Assembly: GCA_030158675.1 (NCBI GenBank)
Contig: JAOASL010000040.1
Span: 261,249-325,248 of the forward strand
Source: Burkholderiaceae bacterium
GTDB taxonomy: Bacteria > Pseudomonadota > Gammaproteobacteria > Burkholderiales > Burkholderiaceae_D
Length of the DNA stretch: 64,000 nt
Direction of reading: 5' to 3'
Shown here: positions 8,471-57,214 of the stretch, piece by piece
How positions within the stretch are numbered: position 1 is the first letter of the stretch
Layout of the letters: each line of letters starts with the position of its first letter
Notes under the pieces: model-generated
What the model was told of the DNA's origin: nothing
What the model saw: only the letters and a program-made list of their open reading frames with translations
Databases searched by the model: none
Position numbers and translations under genes: made by a program

Positions 8471-10177
8471 TCAGTCCGGCAGTGCGAAGGTCCACAGCGA
8501 CGAGCCGGTCGGCACGTTTTTCAGGCGCTCATCGCCTGAATACAGTGCATACACGCCGCCGGTACCGGACGCCACGGTCACATACTGCTTGCCGTTCTTC
8601 TCCCAGGTAATCGGCATCGACACGATGCCCGAGCCGGTCTGGAACTGCCACAGCTTCTTGCCGGACTGGTCGTCATACGCAATGAACTCGCCCGTCATCG
8701 CGCCGGTGAACACCAGGCCGCCCTTGGTCGACATCACGCCGGCAAATTGCGGGATCGCCAGCGGCACGCGCCACTTCTCTTTGGCCGTCAGCGGATCCAT
8801 CGCCTTCAGATAACCGCGCGGCTGCTTCGCGTCATACGAAAAGCCGGTGAAATCCATGCCGATGTAAAACTGGCCGCGCTTCCAGTCCTGCTCGACCAGG
8901 CGATACGACATACCAAAGTTGAGCGTGTTGGCGAACACGGTGTTGGTCTCCGGGTTGTAGGCGACCGGGCTCCAGTTCTTGCCGCCCAGTGCCGACGGCC
9001 AGACCTCATCCGCCTTCTCCATCACCAGCGTCTTGCGGTGACGCGCAGTCATATCGCTGTCGATCGGACGGCCAGTCTTCAGGTCGATGCCCTTGGCCCA
9101 GTCCACACGGTCGACGAACTTGTTCGCCGAAATCAGCTGACCGTTGGTGCGGTCCACCACATACAGGAAGCCATTACGGTCCGCATGGATCAGCACCTTG
9201 CGCGGCTTGCCATCGACCTTGATCTCGGCCAGCACGTTCTCGTTCACGCCGTCGTAGTCATAAGCGTCGTTCGGCGACCACTGGTAGTGCCAGACGAGTT
9301 CGCCGGTCTTCGGGCGAATCGCCACAACCGAGGAAATATATTTGTTATCCATCGCGCCGCGGAACGCCGGGTTCCACGGACCACCGTTACCGGTACCCCA
9401 GTAGGTCAGGTCCAGCTCCGGATCATACGAACCGGTGATCCAGGTTGATCCGCCGCCGCGCTTGTAGGTCTCACCCGGCCAGGTATCGCCGCCCGGCTCG
9501 CCCGGCGCCGCCGTGGTGTAACGACGCCAGAGACGCTTGCCCGTCTTCAGGTCATGGCCGTCGACGAAGCCGCGGATGCCGTATTCACCCCCGGAGATAC
9601 CCGTGATCAGCACGCCATTGGCAATCACCGGCGCCACAGTCAGCGAATAGCCCTGCTTGTAGTCTTCAACGACGGTCTTCCACAGCTGCTTGCCGGTCTT
9701 CATGTCCAGCGCAATGATCGACGCATCGATCACGGTGCGGTAGATCACGCCTTCGTAGGCAGCGACACCGCGGTTGTGGTTACCGCAGCAGACAGCGTTG
9801 TACACGTCTTCCGGCAGGTCCAGCGGGGTCTTCCACAGTTGCTTGCCGGTGATCGCGTCCACAGCCAGCGTCGCATTCACGGTCGGCAGGTAGAGCACGC
9901 CGTCGACCAGCAACGGTTGCTGCGACTGCGGCTGATTCGAATCCAGACTCAGGTTCCAGACCGGCACCATCTTCTTGACGTTATTCCGGTTGATCTGATT
10001 CAGCGTCGAGAAACGCTGCTGACCATAACCCATGCCGTAGGTGGTGACGTTGCCGGTGGTCTTCGCATCGTTCACCAGATCGGCCGCCGTCGGGCCCATC
10101 GCGCTTGCCGGCGCGGACATTGTCGCTGCCAGCGACGTAACCAGGGCGAGCCCCAGTGCCTTGTTCCTCATTTTCAT
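8471..10177 (-). CDS. PQQ-dependent alcohol dehydrogenase with lanthanide-type metal signature
   Basis: A 568-residue periplasmic quinoprotein with a signal peptide cleaved near residue 26 (ASA-MG). It is an eight-bladed propeller protein with repeated TGK-LW tryptophan-docking motifs. Active-site residues are visible: adjacent C130-C131 (AVCCGNHNRG), metal ligand E198 (GGEYGIRGF), PQQ-stacking W246, N264 (GTGNGGPWNP), catalytic D307, and D309 in the segment YDYDG. The extra Asp two residues after the catalytic one is the hallmark of lanthanide-dependent XoxF, ExaF and PedH enzymes; calcium enzymes have Ala, Ser or Thr there. The substrate is probably a primary alcohol but cannot be fixed. 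There is no fused cytochrome domain. A GGGAGA ribosome-binding site precedes the ATG. No pqq biosynthesis genes are in the window. Confidence 0.9.
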   Translation of the reverse strand: MKMRNKALGLALVTSLAATMSAPASAMGPTAADLVNDAKTTGNVTTYGMGYGQQRFSTLNQINRNNVKKMVPVWNLSLDSNQPQSQQPLLVDGVLYLPTVNATLAVDAITGKQLWKTPLDLPEDVYNAVCCGNHNRGVAAYEGVIYRTVIDASIIALDMKTGKQLWKTVVEDYKQGYSLTVAPVIANGVLITGISGGEYGIRGFVDGHDLKTGKRLWRRYTTAAPGEPGGDTWPGETYKRGGGSTWITGSYDPELDLTYWGTGNGGPWNPAFRGAMDNKYISSVVAIRPKTGELVWHYQWSPNDAYDYDGVNENVLAEIKVDGKPRKVLIHADRNGFLYVVDRTNGQLISANKFVDRVDWAKGIDLKTGRPIDSDMTARHRKTLVMEKADEVWPSALGGKNWSPVAYNPETNTVFANTLNFGMSYRLVEQDWKRGQFYIGMDFTGFSYDAKQPRGYLKAMDPLTAKEKWRVPLAIPQFAGVMSTKGGLVFTGAMTGEFIAYDDQSGKKLWQFQTGSGIVSMPITWEKNGKQYVTVASGTGGVYALYSGDERLKNVPTGSSLWTFALPD

Positions 10178-10441
10178 TTCTTTGTCTCCCTATGTTTCTT
10201 CTTTAAGTCCGGTTCGACATGTCATCGGCCCGACCTTCACGCTCATCGACCGCTGCGGGGGCAAACATCCGATCAGCGAAATGATTGTACATAAGCTTTT
10301 CCAAAAATAAATGCGCGGCAGCATCGGAAAGAACGAAAAATTACTTCCGTTCAAACGAGGAAAAGCAATGCTTTTAAGAAGAAAAATGAGCACCCTGGTG
10401 CACCGGGCGGACCGACCGCACACCGGCACGACAAGCGCCGC

Positions 10442-10753
10442 TCAGGAGATCAGCGCTTCGTCGGTACGGGTATCGTTTTCGGTGTCGACCCAGGTGATGA
10501 CGATCTTGTCGCCCGTCTTGCCGCCTTTGAAGCGGAAGGAGAAATAAGGATCGCGCGCGACCGATCCACCAAAATTCACATGCAGCACCTGCCGGCCATT
10601 GCAGGTGCCGCGCACGGTCTGAATGAAATGCGCCAGCACCAGTTTGCCGGCACTGTCCCACGTGAGCCGCGACAGCATCACATGCTTCATCAGGATACGG
10701 ACTTCGGTCCATTCGTCATTTTGTACTGCGCGTACGCGCATCGGCTCGCCCAT
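10442..10753 (-). CDS. soxZ: Sulfur-oxidation carrier subunit SoxZ
   Basis: A 103-residue immunoglobulin-like protein that pairs with SoxY. It has the family features VRILMKHVMLS near the start and FSFRFKGGKTGDKIVITWVDTEND near the end. It has no signal peptide and would be exported with SoxY. It lies 11 bases after soxY with a clear GAGGAGA ribosome-binding site. The gap to the next gene downstream (10178-10441) shows no strong terminator and must hold the dehydrogenase promoter. Confidence 0.93.
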   Translation of the reverse strand: MGEPMRVRAVQNDEWTEVRILMKHVMLSRLTWDSAGKLVLAHFIQTVRGTCNGRQVLHVNFGGSVARDPYFSFRFKGGKTGDKIVITWVDTENDTRTDEALIS

Positions 10754-51757: not shown

Positions 51758-51765
51758 TGCCGCTT

Positions 51766-51812
51766 GGTTGCCGCCCGCCCGGGGCCATGCCCGGTGCGGC
51801 GGCAACTTGTTT
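51766..51812 (+). terminator. Rho-independent terminator of the MFS gene
   Basis: 9-bp arms GTTGCCGCC (51766-51774) and GGCGGCAAC (51797-51805), with further C/G pairing inside, followed by TTGTTTCT. It starts 9 bases past the stop. Confidence 0.75.
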
Positions 51813-52022
51813 CTCTGATCACCCGGCTGTCGCCGCAAGCGCGATGTTTACCTGTCGGGGCGAGTGATCTGGCAATGATCTGACGCTATACTTCCGAAAA
51901 AATTTATTCTGCCGGCTAGCGCTGTCACGTCATGCGACGTGGCCACATGCAGGCCGTGGCAGTGATCGCAAAATTCACGTTCGCGAAAAATTCGCTTTCG
52001 TCCCAGATCAGATGGAGAACCT

Positions 52023-52997
52023 GTGATACCTCACATGGTGCTTGCAGACACATTCGCCGAGTCCAGACGGGTCCTGAAATCCGATGACTACCGCCCGCTA
52101 GCCATGGCAGATCAATACCGGCGCCTGGGAGCGTACCTTGGCGTCGACTTTTCGCCCGCCATACGCTTGCTCGAACTGCTGCCGGTATTCCTGGCTGGCG
52201 CCCGGCACGGGGCCATCCGCAGGCAAATGGCCATCGGACTGGCAGAACTGCGCAGTCAGCAGGAAGTCGCTGCAAGACGTGTCATCGACCAGCTTCCTCC
52301 GTTGTTGTCACCCGGACGATCAGCGGACCTGCTCAGTGAGTTCGTCCAGCCGCTATGGCAAGCGATGGCCTCGGTAAGTGAAGTTCCCGGCGATGAAAGT
52401 GGTGAACTGTCGACTCGCCTTCCGAATTTGTTCGACACCAAGCTGCGCATCCGGGAACGCCTGCAGATTAACGAGCTGCTTCGCGAGTTCATCGGCTTTG
52501 ATCCGGCGTCATCAGAGCAGCGACTGATCGCGTTGGGGCAGAACGTGCTCGGTGCCGCTCCTTTGATCGGCACATTGACGATGTCGCTGCATCAGGTGTT
52601 CACCACGAACCTGGGGACGCCTCTGAACGGCATCACCTATCCGAAGCATTTTCCGGCCAGCGCACTGTCGGTGACCGATCGCGTCTGGCAGAAAAATTCG
52701 GGATCTGCCGGCGCACAAGCCCCCGAAACCACGCGCTGTGTATTGCACTCGCCAAACTTCACGGCTGCCGAAAATGAAGAGGCACTGTTTGGCATGGGCG
52801 AGCATACCTGTCTGGGCAGGTCGATCGCCAATCTGGTTTGGACGATGGTCCTCGAAAAGCTGAGCACTCTGCCTGTCAGCATACGGTCGTCGACGCTGGC
52901 GCTGCGCACCGACCCGCCGCAGAGTGCCGAAGATTTCCTGGCGATAGATGATCCGTTCATACGACCACGCAGCCTGCGAGTGACCGTTGAATCCTGA
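52023..52997 (+). CDS. Short, atypical cytochrome P450-like protein
   Basis: A 324-residue protein with a clear P450 haem loop, ALFGMGEHTCLGRSIANLVW, near residue 265, and an early HxxxR segment (ARHGAIRRQMA) like the C-helix region. It is about 80 residues shorter than usual bacterial P450s. I cannot find the ExxR of the K helix or the AGxxT of the I helix (the corresponding stretch is ALGQNVLGAAPLIGTLTMSL). It may bind haem but use unusual or no oxygen chemistry. The start is GTG 52023 with GGAG six bases upstream; ATG 52035 is an alternative. No ferredoxin or reductase is nearby. It overlaps the next gene. Confidence 0.72.
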   Translation: MIPHMVLADTFAESRRVLKSDDYRPLAMADQYRRLGAYLGVDFSPAIRLLELLPVFLAGARHGAIRRQMAIGLAELRSQQEVAARRVIDQLPPLLSPGRSADLLSEFVQPLWQAMASVSEVPGDESGELSTRLPNLFDTKLRIRERLQINELLREFIGFDPASSEQRLIALGQNVLGAAPLIGTLTMSLHQVFTTNLGTPLNGITYPKHFPASALSVTDRVWQKNSGSAGAQAPETTRCVLHSPNFTAAENEEALFGMGEHTCLGRSIANLVWTMVLEKLSTLPVSIRSSTLALRTDPPQSAEDFLAIDDPFIRPRSLRVTVES

Positions 52998-53955
52998 CAT
53001 TTTATCTGCGGCCATCGGATTCAGCGATCCGCTGCAGCACTCGCTGGCCCAGCTGGAGCGGTTGGCGGCCGCATTGAAGCATGCCCGCTTCGACCTGCGC
53101 GATGCACTCAGAACTGCGACACAACTGGCCTGCCAAGGCCAGCCCTCTGCGCGCGCTTTCGTGCACCACATCCAATCCGGGATCGATCACCCGGAGGTCC
53201 AGAAGCGGACCGACAAGCTGCTGAAGATCTGCGACTACACTGATCGTCTCGAGGCTCTGACCGAGATACACCGCGATAAGCTGCTGTTGCCCAGGCTGTA
53301 CGCACTGGAGGGGCCCGTGTTCATCGAGGGCGATCCGGCCAGGCAGAAGCTGGTTGTCGTGTTCACCACCATGTTCAACAACTTCGGGATCGCCAACACC
53401 GTCCTGCTCGCGATCCTGAAAAAATACGGCGTCTCCGTGCTGCTGCTGCGGGACTGCACACAGGCCAACTATCTCGGTGGCGCCAGCAGTTTCGGTGAAG
53501 ACCTCGACGACATGTCGCAAAAGATCGAAGCATTCGCCCGCAGTAAATCGTTCGACAGCGTTTACCTGATGGGCTACTCGTCGGGAGCTTACGCCAGCTG
53601 TTACGCGTCCACGCGCATGCGCTGCGCAGGCCATCTCGTGTTTTCAGGTCCCGCCGATTTTTCGCTCGATACGGCACTGCCGACGGAATGGATGATTCCC
53701 CGGGAGATCAGACAACTGTTCGACCCACGCCATTTGCTCGACCTGAGCGATGTGCTGCCAGGCGCCCCTTTGAGGCGGCGCTTCATCGTTGGCGCCCAGT
53801 CACGGCGCGACCTCAGGAACGCACATCACCTGAGGCATGTCGCCGGACTGGAAATCATCGAAATCGCGGACTGCGTCCACGACACCCCGGAAACCCTGAT
53901 CGCCCGCGGCGAATTCGACGCTCACCTCGACTGGCTATTCAGCGGCAGCGCTTAG
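52987..53955 (+). CDS. Alpha/beta hydrolase with N-terminal extension
   Basis: A 322-residue protein. The first 110 residues are helical and unlike known hydrolases. The core then has LVVVFTTMFNNFG, the nucleophile elbow MGYSSGAYASCYAS, and a likely catalytic His in IADCVHDTPETL. Substrate unknown; with an ACP gene beside it, an acyl-transfer or thioesterase role is possible. It begins at a TTG that overlaps the P450-like stop by 11 bases, so the two are coupled. Its last 21 bases overlap the convergent ACP gene. Confidence 0.75.
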   Translation: MNPDILSAAIGFSDPLQHSLAQLERLAAALKHARFDLRDALRTATQLACQGQPSARAFVHHIQSGIDHPEVQKRTDKLLKICDYTDRLEALTEIHRDKLLLPRLYALEGPVFIEGDPARQKLVVVFTTMFNNFGIANTVLLAILKKYGVSVLLLRDCTQANYLGGASSFGEDLDDMSQKIEAFARSKSFDSVYLMGYSSGAYASCYASTRMRCAGHLVFSGPADFSLDTALPTEWMIPREIRQLFDPRHLLDLSDVLPGAPLRRRFIVGAQSRRDLRNAHHLRHVAGLEIIEIADCVHDTPETLIARGEFDAHLDWLFSGSA

Positions 53956-54189
53956 TTTCAGTGCCAGCTCGCTGATACGCAAAGACTCGTCGAATTCCTC
54001 CACCTCGACCGGGCGACCGATATCATCCTCCACCTGCATCGCCAGTGTCAGCAGGTCGAGGCTGTCGAGCGACAGGTCGCCGATGCGTGCCGACCGCAAG
54101 GTACCCGGATCCTTGGGACGTTTGTCCGCAGCAAGCAACTCCATGATACGAGCGACGATTTTTTCTTCAATGTCATTGGCAGTCAGCAT
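53935..54189 (-). CDS. Acyl carrier protein
   Basis: An 84-residue acidic carrier protein. The phosphopantetheine site is the Ser in IGDLSLDSLDLLTLAMQVEDDIG (DSLD), and the helices on both sides fit the ACP fold (IEEKIVARIMELLAADK; ISELALKLSAAAE). It is not the housekeeping acpP by sequence and has no fab genes around it. It lies opposite the P450-like and hydrolase genes and overlaps the hydrolase at the 3' end. It probably carries the substrate of that pair. Confidence 0.88.
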   Translation of the reverse strand: MLTANDIEEKIVARIMELLAADKRPKDPGTLRSARIGDLSLDSLDLLTLAMQVEDDIGRPVEVEEFDESLRISELALKLSAAAE

Positions 54190-54456
54190 GGTTGAGGCTT
54201 GAATTTCAAAAGTCTGAGGTTTTACCAGAAGCGCCTCCCTGCCGCACTATTTTTCTGAGGCGACGAGTGCCTGCCACCGTCGACATTGCAGTGTCTGCGC
54301 GCTTTGTCCGGGAACTGGCAGCCTCGACAGTGGCTCACGCGTTGAGCCACACGTCGCGGACAATCGGGCGCTTTCCTTACCGGAGAGCCTCCTGCAAAAC
54401 ATCCGCTCCTTGTCGTGCTCCATCAGCCTGTCCTTCGCTCCTGCTTGACGAAGGCA

Positions 54457-54900
54457 GTGGGTCCGCCTATATTGATACACAATTACTGTTTTAATATAGG
54501 TGTCGCAATATACTCGCTAGACCAAATTACGGTGCTTGCCGATGTACCCAAGCGCACGGTTCGCTACTACATACAGCTCGGACTGGTCGACCGTCCGATC
54601 GGTGAAACGCGGGCGGCGCACTACACGCAAGACCACCTGGAGCAGCTGCTCAAAGTGAAACATCTGGCGGCGGCCGGCGTATCGCTGGAGCGCATCCGCG
54701 ACGTGCTCTCCGGCGCGCCGGCGCCCGTGCCACCGCCGGCACGGCAGCCGGGCAGCGTCGAGGTGCGCAGCCATCTGCACATTGCGCCCGGCATCGAATT
54801 GCAGATCGCGCCGGATGAGGCCGGCCTGTCGCCCGAGCGCCTGCGCCGTTTTATCCGTGCCGTCATGAATGAATGGAAAAAACTCGACCATGAAAAATAG
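54457..54900 (+). CDS. MerR family transcriptional regulator
   Basis: About 147 residues. The winged-helix DNA-binding domain reads YSLDQITVLADVPKRTVRYYIQLGLVDRPIGETRAAHYTQDHLEQLLKVKHLAAAGVSLERIRDVL. A Pro-rich linker and a short C-terminal part follow, with no metal-binding cysteine loop like CueR. No ATG precedes the domain; candidates are GTG 54415, GTG 54457 and TTG 54472, none with a good ribosome-binding site. The stop overlaps the start of the VIT-VWA gene, so the two are coupled. Confidence 0.78.
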   Translation: MGPPILIHNYCFNIGVAIYSLDQITVLADVPKRTVRYYIQLGLVDRPIGETRAAHYTQDHLEQLLKVKHLAAAGVSLERIRDVLSGAPAPVPPPARQPGSVEVRSHLHIAPGIELQIAPDEAGLSPERLRRFIRAVMNEWKKLDHEK

Positions 54901-57214
54901 CGAACAATCTATCGGACTGACTGCGAACCACGGCCTTGAAAAAATGGCTCTGCAGTCGGTTCATGCGCACGGCGAAGTGGACGGGCTGCTACTGCGCATG
55001 GCGCTGCGGCAGGTCTATCGCAACACCACCGACAAGGAGCTCGAGACTGTCTACAGCTTTCCTTTGGCGTGGGGCACCACCTTGCTGGGCATGCGCGTCG
55101 AATTGAACGGCAAAGTCCTGCACGGCAGCGTGATCGAAAAATCCGATGCCGAAGAGCGATACGAACAGGCCATCGAGAAAGGCGACCTGCCGGTGATGCT
55201 GGTCAGAGAAGGCAAGGATCTTTACTCCGCACGCATCGGCAATCTGAAGCCCGGCGACGAGACGGTCATCGAGATCGACTACGGCCAGCTACTGACACCG
55301 GATCAGGGATACACCCGCATCACGATTCCGACCACGATCGCACCGCGCTACGGACGCGATCCCGGACTCCGGGGCATGGTCGCCCACGCCATCGGCACCA
55401 TTGATCCGTTCGCGGAATACCGCTTTTTCCTTACCCTCGCGCTCCGTGGTCCGCTGGCACGCGGTCGCATCGCCTGCCCGAGCCACACGGTAAGTCAACA
55501 GGCGGGTGACCAGGGTCTGACGGTACAACTGTCGCAGCAGGCCATGCTCGACCGCGACTTCATCCTGACCATCGAGACGGATGACATCGGCAGCGCTCTG
55601 GTCAGCCCGAACCCGGGCGAAACCGACGCGTATACCGTACTGCAGAGCTTTGCTCCCCGTCTGCCGGCAGCCACGAAAACCGAGGCGCCGTTACAGTTGA
55701 AAATCCTGATCGACTGCTCTGGCTCGATGGCAGGTGACAGCCTGCGGATGGCGAAGCAGGCGCTGGCCAGCGTGATCGGTCGGCTCAGGGCTGTGGACTA
55801 CGTATCGTTCAGCCGCTTCGGCTCGAACACGATGCACGTCGTCGACCGCCTCGTGCCTGCCAGCGAGGCCCACCTCCCCTGGCTGCTGGATGCAGTGCAG
55901 AAAACCGAGGCCGACATGGGCGGCACCGCCCTTGAGATGGCGTTGCGACAGGTAATCGCCCTGCGACAACAGAACGGCAAGGAAGCGGAAGCCGCCAGCA
56001 TCTTGCTGATCACCGATGGCGAAGTCTGGGACATCGACGCGATCGTCGCCACCGTTCGTCAATCCGGTCATCAGGTATATGTGATCGGCGTCGGCAGCTC
56101 GCCGGCAGAAAGTCTGGTACGTGAGCTTGCCGAAGTCAGCGGCGGCGCGGCGGAGCTGGCCTCCGGCGAACAGAACATGGCAGCGGCGACTGCCCGGCTC
56201 GTCGAAAAGATGCGCTCCACACTGGATCTTGAGGTTGCGGCCGTGCTCGATGGTGAGTCCCTGCTGCTGCCACGCAAGCGCTACCGGGTCGCCGCCGGCA
56301 CGACGCTGCACCTGTGGTACCCGCTGAACCGGCGGCTGGCACAGTCGGCGCAGATCACCGTCACCGACCGCCGCTCAGGCGAACAGCAAACGATTGCTTC
56401 GAGCGCGCTTGCATGGAACAGCGACGGGACGGTGGCAAGGATAGGCGCTGCCCAATGTTTGCATGACATTACCGACGCGCGCGAGCGCCGCAAAATCGCG
56501 CTGCAATACCAGCTGATCACGGAGCAGACTCATTTTCTGCTGGTGCATGAGCGCGATGCAGCGGACAAGGCCAGCGGCATGCCGGCACTGCAGCCGATCG
56601 GCAGCATGCTGGCCGCCGGCTGGGGAGGCGCCGGCACCGTGATGGAATGCGGCCCGGCCAAGTACGAGCTGCCGTCTTTCATGCGTCGCCAGGCGGATGT
56701 ACCCGACCCGACCAGCAGCGCAGCGCAGACGCCCCGTTTCAGTATGCGCAGTCTCGCCCGTGGCATCACCCGGTTTTCCGATTGGAATCCGGCGCTTCTT
56801 TGGTATACCAGCCTGGGCGAAGTGATCGCGCATCCAAAGGACAGCACCAATCCGCTCAGGCAGCTGGCCGACAAGCTCGGCGAGATGCACGCCGATCCGG
56901 ATGCCTTCGCCGCACTGAATAAACTGGTCGACGGCGACCCCAGGATGGGTTTTCTGCGGCCCTTGCTCGACGCACTGGAAAAGCTCAGCGGTGACCGGGA
57001 GCACGCGATCGCCCTGCTGCTCAGCTGGGCGCGAATGCAAAAACCTGCTTGCGTGCGCCTGTCGCGCCACGCGCGCAAGCGGCTCGACGACTGCATCGCC
57101 ACCCTGCCGAAAGCGCGTTCGGAGCAAGCCAGCAACTATCTTGACGCCGCGGCCATGAGCGCGGTCGGGCAAGCCGGCGAAGCCCGCACCGAAGGCGCAA
57201 GCGCCCCGGGCTGA
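54890..57214 (+). CDS. VIT and VWA domain protein
   Basis: A 774-residue protein without a signal peptide. The VIT domain (about 10-145) includes LRMALRQVYRNTTDKELETVYSFPLAWGTTLLGMRVELNGK and RYEQAIEKG. The VWA domain (about 265-440) has the metal site LIDCSGSMAGDS and TDGEVWD. A C-terminal part of about 300 residues is not recognised. In animals this pairing occurs in inter-alpha-trypsin inhibitors; bacterial versions have no settled role. It is coupled to a MerR regulator (ATG within the MerR stop region). Confidence 0.88.
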   Translation: MKNSEQSIGLTANHGLEKMALQSVHAHGEVDGLLLRMALRQVYRNTTDKELETVYSFPLAWGTTLLGMRVELNGKVLHGSVIEKSDAEERYEQAIEKGDLPVMLVREGKDLYSARIGNLKPGDETVIEIDYGQLLTPDQGYTRITIPTTIAPRYGRDPGLRGMVAHAIGTIDPFAEYRFFLTLALRGPLARGRIACPSHTVSQQAGDQGLTVQLSQQAMLDRDFILTIETDDIGSALVSPNPGETDAYTVLQSFAPRLPAATKTEAPLQLKILIDCSGSMAGDSLRMAKQALASVIGRLRAVDYVSFSRFGSNTMHVVDRLVPASEAHLPWLLDAVQKTEADMGGTALEMALRQVIALRQQNGKEAEAASILLITDGEVWDIDAIVATVRQSGHQVYVIGVGSSPAESLVRELAEVSGGAAELASGEQNMAAATARLVEKMRSTLDLEVAAVLDGESLLLPRKRYRVAAGTTLHLWYPLNRRLAQSAQITVTDRRSGEQQTIASSALAWNSDGTVARIGAAQCLHDITDARERRKIALQYQLITEQTHFLLVHERDAADKASGMPALQPIGSMLAAGWGGAGTVMECGPAKYELPSFMRRQADVPDPTSSAAQTPRFSMRSLARGITRFSDWNPALLWYTSLGEVIAHPKDSTNPLRQLADKLGEMHADPDAFAALNKLVDGDPRMGFLRPLLDALEKLSGDREHAIALLLSWARMQKPACVRLSRHARKRLDDCIATLPKARSEQASNYLDAAAMSAVGQAGEARTEGASAPG

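Follow-up and report, generated by a model that had tools for sequence, protein, structure and literature searches.

Gene organization of the locus

The window analysed here, i.e. the whole stretch of 64,000 nucleotides, contains a compact cassette of three genes, whose features are as follows.

51758..52022, no strand: intergenic region of 265 nt, 57.7% GC, lying 5' of the P450-like/hydrolase gene pair; presumed promoter region
52023..52997, + strand: short P450-like protein, 324 aa; GTG start; Cys263 in FGMGEHTCLG; H62xxxR66; R220; no K-helix ExxR
52987..53955, + strand: alpha/beta hydrolase, 322 aa; TTG start; GYSSG (Ser198), Asp275 and His298 aligned
53935..54189, - strand: acyl carrier protein (ACP), 84 aa; LDSL attachment Ser
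54190..54414, no strand: intergenic region of 225 nt, 57.8% GC, lying 5' of the ACP gene; presumed promoter region

ORF calls on the window recovered all three reading frames intact, at the positions given to them in the first-pass annotation of this DNA. The GTG codon of the P450-like gene is preceded by a GGAG sequence 5 nt upstream, the hydrolase gene starts inside the P450-like gene with an overlap of 11 nt, and the hydrolase and ACP genes overlap tail-to-tail by 21 nt. The DNA between the ACP gene and the MerR gene had been described as A/T-rich; however, although its GC content of 57.8% is below the approximately 63% of the surroundings, it is not A/T-rich. Further along (positions 54415-57214), a gene for a MerR-type regulator overlaps the gene for a VIT-VWA protein, and the VIT neighbour has matches at 40-46% identity in 6 of 20 other genomes of the genus, which are too weak to place an empty site. 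In comparison to a GC3 baseline obtained with a simple gene caller from the 40 genes of the window that have 150 or more codons (mean 0.775, sd 0.043), the values for the P450-like, hydrolase and ACP genes are 0.676, 0.761 and 0.667, respectively, so that two of the three cassette genes are low for the window. The earlier observation that no ligase lies beside the cassette holds true for the window, and neither a redox partner or reductase gene nor an ACP-loading enzyme adjoins the window cassette.

Sequence characteristics of the P450-like protein

A search of Pfam and NCBIfam with the window P450-like protein gave no family at E values up to 1, and the best E value for this sequence alone against PDB is 0.078. 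A profile based on 11 P450-like proteins (A4) matches the P450s in PDB with a best whole-sequence E value of 4.8e-10, and its matches to the solved P450s fall in the HxxxR and Cys-loop regions. By profile comparison, the window protein is identified as a homologue of the cytochrome P450 superfamily. Structure prediction had been suggested earlier for this protein. All 50 of the Foldseek matches listed for its model are P450s; the model itself, an AF2 prediction based on 3 sequences, is weak (mean pLDDT 67), with pLDDT below 50 for residues 215-263, just before and including the Cys, making the Cys-loop region unreliable. Among the matches listed, P450Blt is the top one (7.9e-5) and P450BioI bound to acyl-ACP is seen at 7.5e-4, and the superposition of the model on known P450s is poor, with a TM of about 0.5 and an rmsd close to 10 A.

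The motifs of this protein are as they were originally read, viz. the Cys-ligand loop FxxGxxxCxG is present as FGMGEHTCLG, the I-helix AGx(D/E)T is replaced by LGAAPL, and the K-helix ExxR is absent, with no E..R string found 40-100 residues before the Cys motif. The E..R strings seen elsewhere in the protein are ESRR (13), ELLR (151) and ETTR (235), of which the last lies 28 residues before the Cys and has its Glu kept in just 5 of 14 aligned copies. When this single mechanical test is applied to the aligned short copies, 13 of the 14 likewise lack an E..R in this interval, and the remaining one, L024, has an isolated EAPR at 199 that contains Pro, is not common to the others and is not aligned with the K-helix. 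In 12 longer P450s containing a Cys loop, the same test finds the motif in 11, L035 being the exception.

In the 11 aligned copies of A4, 13 positions are invariant (G40, D42, H62, R66, A70, P110, G177, R220, G257, G259, H261, C263 and G265), C263 thus being kept in 11/11, and in a wider table of 14 copies the position of R66 is Lys in L049. In the structure of P450cam, the haem propionates are contacted by a basic residue of the C-helix, by an Arg that follows the K-helix and by a His located two residues ahead of the Cys, and the correspondence of these contacts with invariant positions makes part of the invariant set look like a haem site. The invariant H62xxxR66, R220 and GxHxCxG are accordingly referred to here as presumed haem contacts. 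Judged from its residues, this protein is a P450 relative in which the ExxR of the K-helix and the Thr of the I-helix are gone and what looks like a haem site is kept.

The I-helix Thr is missing in all 14 of the aligned short copies, and in the window protein the acid is also absent, which makes ordinary activation of O2 doubtful. Further, the distance from the I-helix Gly to the Cys is 81-89 residues in the 14 short copies versus 108 and 110 in two ordinary P450s. Both the loss of the Thr and this shortening would be expected if the P450-like protein had ceased to be an enzyme and now served as a docking or regulatory partner of the ACP or the hydrolase, with or without haem, leaving the chemistry to the hydrolase. 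However, the Cys and the residues presumed to touch the haem propionates are invariant, although a mere scaffold would have no use for them, and we consider this explanation to be unlikely. Another possibility is that the protein carries out haem chemistry of the peroxygenase or lyase type, similar to CYP152, which would require no reductase, the substrate being a fatty acid that is either ACP-bound or freed. This agrees with the lack of an adjoining reductase gene in the window and with the presence of Arg-Pro as the I-helix acid/alcohol pair in 3 of 14 copies (L003, L032 and L047). However, this pair is Ala-Pro in the window and Tyr-Pro in L002, and in 9 of 14 copies its first member is Asp or Glu and its second Ala or Pro; Arg-Pro is thus not a general characteristic, and the likelihood of this explanation is rather low.

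The hydrolase and the acyl carrier protein

The hydrolase begins with a helical N-terminal part of about 110 residues and shows only sub-threshold matches in Pfam, as exemplified by Hydrolase_4 (13.6 bits versus a cut-off of 27). Foldseek searches with its AF2 model (3 sequences, pLDDT 73) retrieve serine hydrolases, with a best value of 7.7e-7, and the window protein has an alpha/beta hydrolase fold. The Ser, Asp and His residues corresponding to Ser198, Asp275 and His298 are aligned in 10 of 10 window-type hydrolases, the window protein included, and they probably form the catalytic residues. A PADLOC match of this protein to BrxC (E 0.03) was taken as chance. The product of the third gene matches PP-binding (PF00550) with 22.7 bits, above the cut-off of 20.8, and the attachment Ser (DSL) is present in 16 of 16 ACPs aligned, that of G580 included; by this family match, the gene is assigned to a carrier protein.

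Distribution of the P450-like proteins

A scan of genome contigs with the hydrolase led to two loci, one in a Novosphingobium MAG (L002) and the other in Thalassovita litoralis DSM 29506 (L003), both of which also carry the P450-like and ACP genes. In searches with the P450-like profile, matches were found in 11 of 295 genomes of the Thalassovita family, 5 of 249 of the Novosphingobium family, 5 of 258 of the window's class and 8 of 270 of the Thalassovita class, and in the window's order the sole match among 115 genomes is the window itself, with none in the other 114. The genome groups in these searches overlap, each count includes the centre genome, and ordinary P450s of greater length make up many of the weaker matches. 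In the window's family, the P450-like protein was found in 1 of 392 genomes, again the window itself, and the same was the case for the hydrolase; these family searches used a single sequence, due to which distant relatives would be missed. Plasmid searches with the P450-like or hydrolase proteins gave no match, the scan of genome contigs with the single P450-like sequence gave 69 pattern matches and no relative, and that of viral contigs with the hydrolase alignment gave 87 pattern matches and no relative. The P450-like cassette is rare among the sampled genomes.

These searches identified 15 short P450-like genes without the K-helix ExxR, the window's included, in distantly related genomes (viz. 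the window, G392 (L002), G393 (L003), G805 (L032), G1209 (L047), G1075 (L048), G937 (L049) and, as L023-L030, G440, G433, G516, G530, G676, G590, G486 and G599). If the window gene were derived from an ordinary P450 by truncation, then its closest homologues should be of full length and contain the ExxR motif. However, they are likewise short and lack this motif, and based on the occurrence of 15 such genes in distantly related genomes, the window copy is not a truncated pseudogene. The broader suggestion, that this is a decayed ordinary P450 with unrelated neighbours, whether a pseudogene or a chance association, could draw on its rarity (the window is alone among 392 family and 115 order genomes), on the low GC3 of two of the three genes, and on the frame-split state of the gene in the relative G590. 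However, relatives that are only 20-33% identical keep the same residues and partner genes, and the tail-to-tail overlap of the ACP gene recurs in L002 and L032, in view of which decay is hardly credible. In G590 itself (L028, positions 9239-10518), the P450-like gene is split over two frames and the ACP gene is intact, indicative of either a sequencing error or decay.

Conservation of the gene neighbourhood

An ACP gene is present in the cassettes of all 15 of the short P450-like genes, so that the neighbourhood, on whose conservation the first-pass annotation had made its proposal depend, is indeed conserved. In 11 of the 15, the ACP gene abuts the P450-like gene, ranging from an overlap of 74 nt (the start codon being uncertain) to a gap of 65 nt, and in the other 4 (the window, L002, L032 and L049) the two genes are at opposite ends of the set and 937 to 1729 nt apart. 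In 11 of 15 cassettes, the third gene codes for an A2-family alpha/beta hydrolase; that of G516 codes for a protein with a Thioesterase domain (PF00975, 5.6e-14), and that of G1075 for a protein with a thioesterase-like match below the threshold (E 0.01). A hydrolase or thioesterase is therefore present in 13 of 15 cassettes, in one of them weakly recognised, and the remaining two (G590 and G1209) contain another protein. The proteins in question, encoded at positions 8341-9372 of L047 and 10518-11393 of L028, resemble each other (BLASTP 2e-5) and have no Pfam match. Their resemblance to lipid A acyltransferases is by eye, and an identity of this kind is a guess; in a PDB profile search, 5knk and 5kn7 have E values of about 1.1 and come behind unrelated chains.

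For comparison, a carrier match was found in the flank of 1 of 11 longer, ExxR-bearing P450s (that in G1370), or in 2 of 12 if L042 is counted, where the frame of the P450 is uncertain and the adjoining frame has a weak carrier match (E 0.003). The contrast with these controls is limited, because most flanks span about 1.5 kb and would not reach an ACP gene as distant as those in L002 and L032, and also because the cassette ACPs themselves served to build the carrier model and it was likeness to the family that brought up the controls. Some related loci carry additional genes. In G1370 (L050, 8413-11676), an ordinary ExxR P450 is flanked by an AMP-ligase (PF00501, 1.6e-54) on one side and an ACP-like frame on the other, and this is a full-length counterpart of the carrier arrangement. 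In G995 (L059, 127-4086), a fusion of AMP-ligase, carrier and thioesterase-like parts, the last of them scoring 26.0 bits against a cut-off of 26.4, is convergent with a 397-aa P450 without ExxR, the twelfth of the longer P450s, and this fusion may give an indication of how loading takes place throughout the group. In G580 (L031, 6563-18401), a tandem double P450-like protein of 753 aa, neither of whose Cys motifs is preceded by an E..R at 40-100 residues, is found with an ACP, an AMP-ligase and a carbamoyltransferase, in what looks like a small biosynthetic cluster.

A sulfotransferase gene is present in the cassettes of L002 and L032 (PF09037 over the cut-off) and is weakly indicated in that of L003 (Sulfotransfer_3, 15 bits versus 27). 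With such a gene, the cassette could carry out decarboxylative olefin formation similar to that by CurM ST-TE, i.e. hydroxylation and sulfonation followed by hydrolysis with loss of CO2 and sulfate. However, within the cassettes proper, to which this observation is confined, the other 11 relatives have no additional gene among the three, and in the window's genome, where the search covered PF13469 and PF09037, there is no match to PF13469, which was matched in 3 of 14 controls, or to PF09037, which no control matched either. We consider olefin formation to be a very improbable explanation of the cassette.

Interpretation of the cassette

Because the homologues are short and lack ExxR and the neighbourhood is conserved, the earlier proposal of a pathway acting on an ACP-tethered acyl group has gained support in respect of the modification and the release or transfer of this group, whereas oxidation by the P450-like protein and the nature of the substrate are still inferred. 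The recurrence of the gene trio in distant bacteria points to a conserved pathway that tailors a carrier-held molecule, and the constancy of the ACP while the third gene varies fits a pathway centred on the carrier. We consider it somewhat probable that the three genes form a self-contained acyl-tailoring cassette, in which a haem-thiolate protein acts on an acyl chain attached to its dedicated ACP and the hydrolase releases or transfers it. The phosphopantetheine arm of the small ACP would be loaded with an acyl (or aminoacyl) group, and the P450-like protein would dock on the loaded ACP, similar to P450BioI. Its haem-thiolate centre, which would act on the chain, would be secured by the retained Cys and the presumed contacts to the propionates in place of the ExxR lock. 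The serine hydrolase would presumably then cleave the thioester or hand the chain to an acceptor. A reading in terms of biotin (BioI/BioH) was considered as well. A bolder possibility, which we regard as tentative and on balance doubtful, is that these proteins constitute a separate lineage of small P450s without the K-helix/ExxR lock or the oxygen-activating Thr, which has kept the haem-thiolate site, works without a reductase, acts only on chains held by its own carrier and is combined with an interchangeable release module (a hydrolase, a thioesterase or another transferase, sometimes with sulfation).

No paper describing this cassette was found by title or abstract start among the matches listed for open PMC papers. 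The cassette is a natural experiment on the minimum of P450 core that will hold haem and support chemistry. It also marks a small-molecule or lipid-tailoring pathway of a kind that profile-based annotation can miss, as the window P450-like gene has no Pfam or NCBIfam match.

Comparison with known systems

In CurM ST-TE and the cyanobacterial olefin synthase, a carrier protein, a sulfotransferase and a thioesterase occur together, and the trio of carrier, sulfotransferase and thioesterase-type proteins in L002 and L032, and perhaps L003, is similar to this. However, the window's genome lacks a sulfotransferase match (two families), no PKS module was seen, and the P450-like protein has no counterpart in CurM ST-TE. 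In CYP152, the I-helix acid/alcohol pair is Arg-Pro and the full P450 core is kept. The likeness of the present proteins to CYP152 and OleT lies in the replacement of this pair, which is by Arg-Pro in 3 of 14 copies, whereas the pair in the window is Ala-Pro.

Precedents exist for parts of the cassette, viz. P450BioI, which according to PMC10741444 works on acyl-ACP, and P450s without ExxR or the K-helix. Similar to P450BioI (CYP107H1), the P450 relative described here is thought to work on an ACP-bound acyl chain, and the P450BioI-acyl-ACP structures (3ejd, 3eje and 3ejb) are among the best Foldseek matches of the window model. However, P450BioI is a full-length P450, with PDB chains of about 380-400 aa, whereas the window protein lacks the K-helix ExxR and has about 20 fewer residues from the I-helix to the Cys, and its gene shares a cassette with those for an ACP and a hydrolase. 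In regard to the missing motifs, PMC3599690 (which cites Rupasinghe 2006) reports that the complete ExxR is absent in CYP157 and other motif-poor P450s of Streptomyces, and that the I-helix is missing in Svu001 and both the I-helix and the K-helix in Svu002. However, CYP157 has retained a K-helix, with EVLW/EQSLW, and its linkage is to conservons, whereas the P450-like protein described here is accompanied by an ACP and a hydrolase; and in contrast to CYP157 and the other motif-poor P450s, the loss of motifs seen here is common to the whole group.
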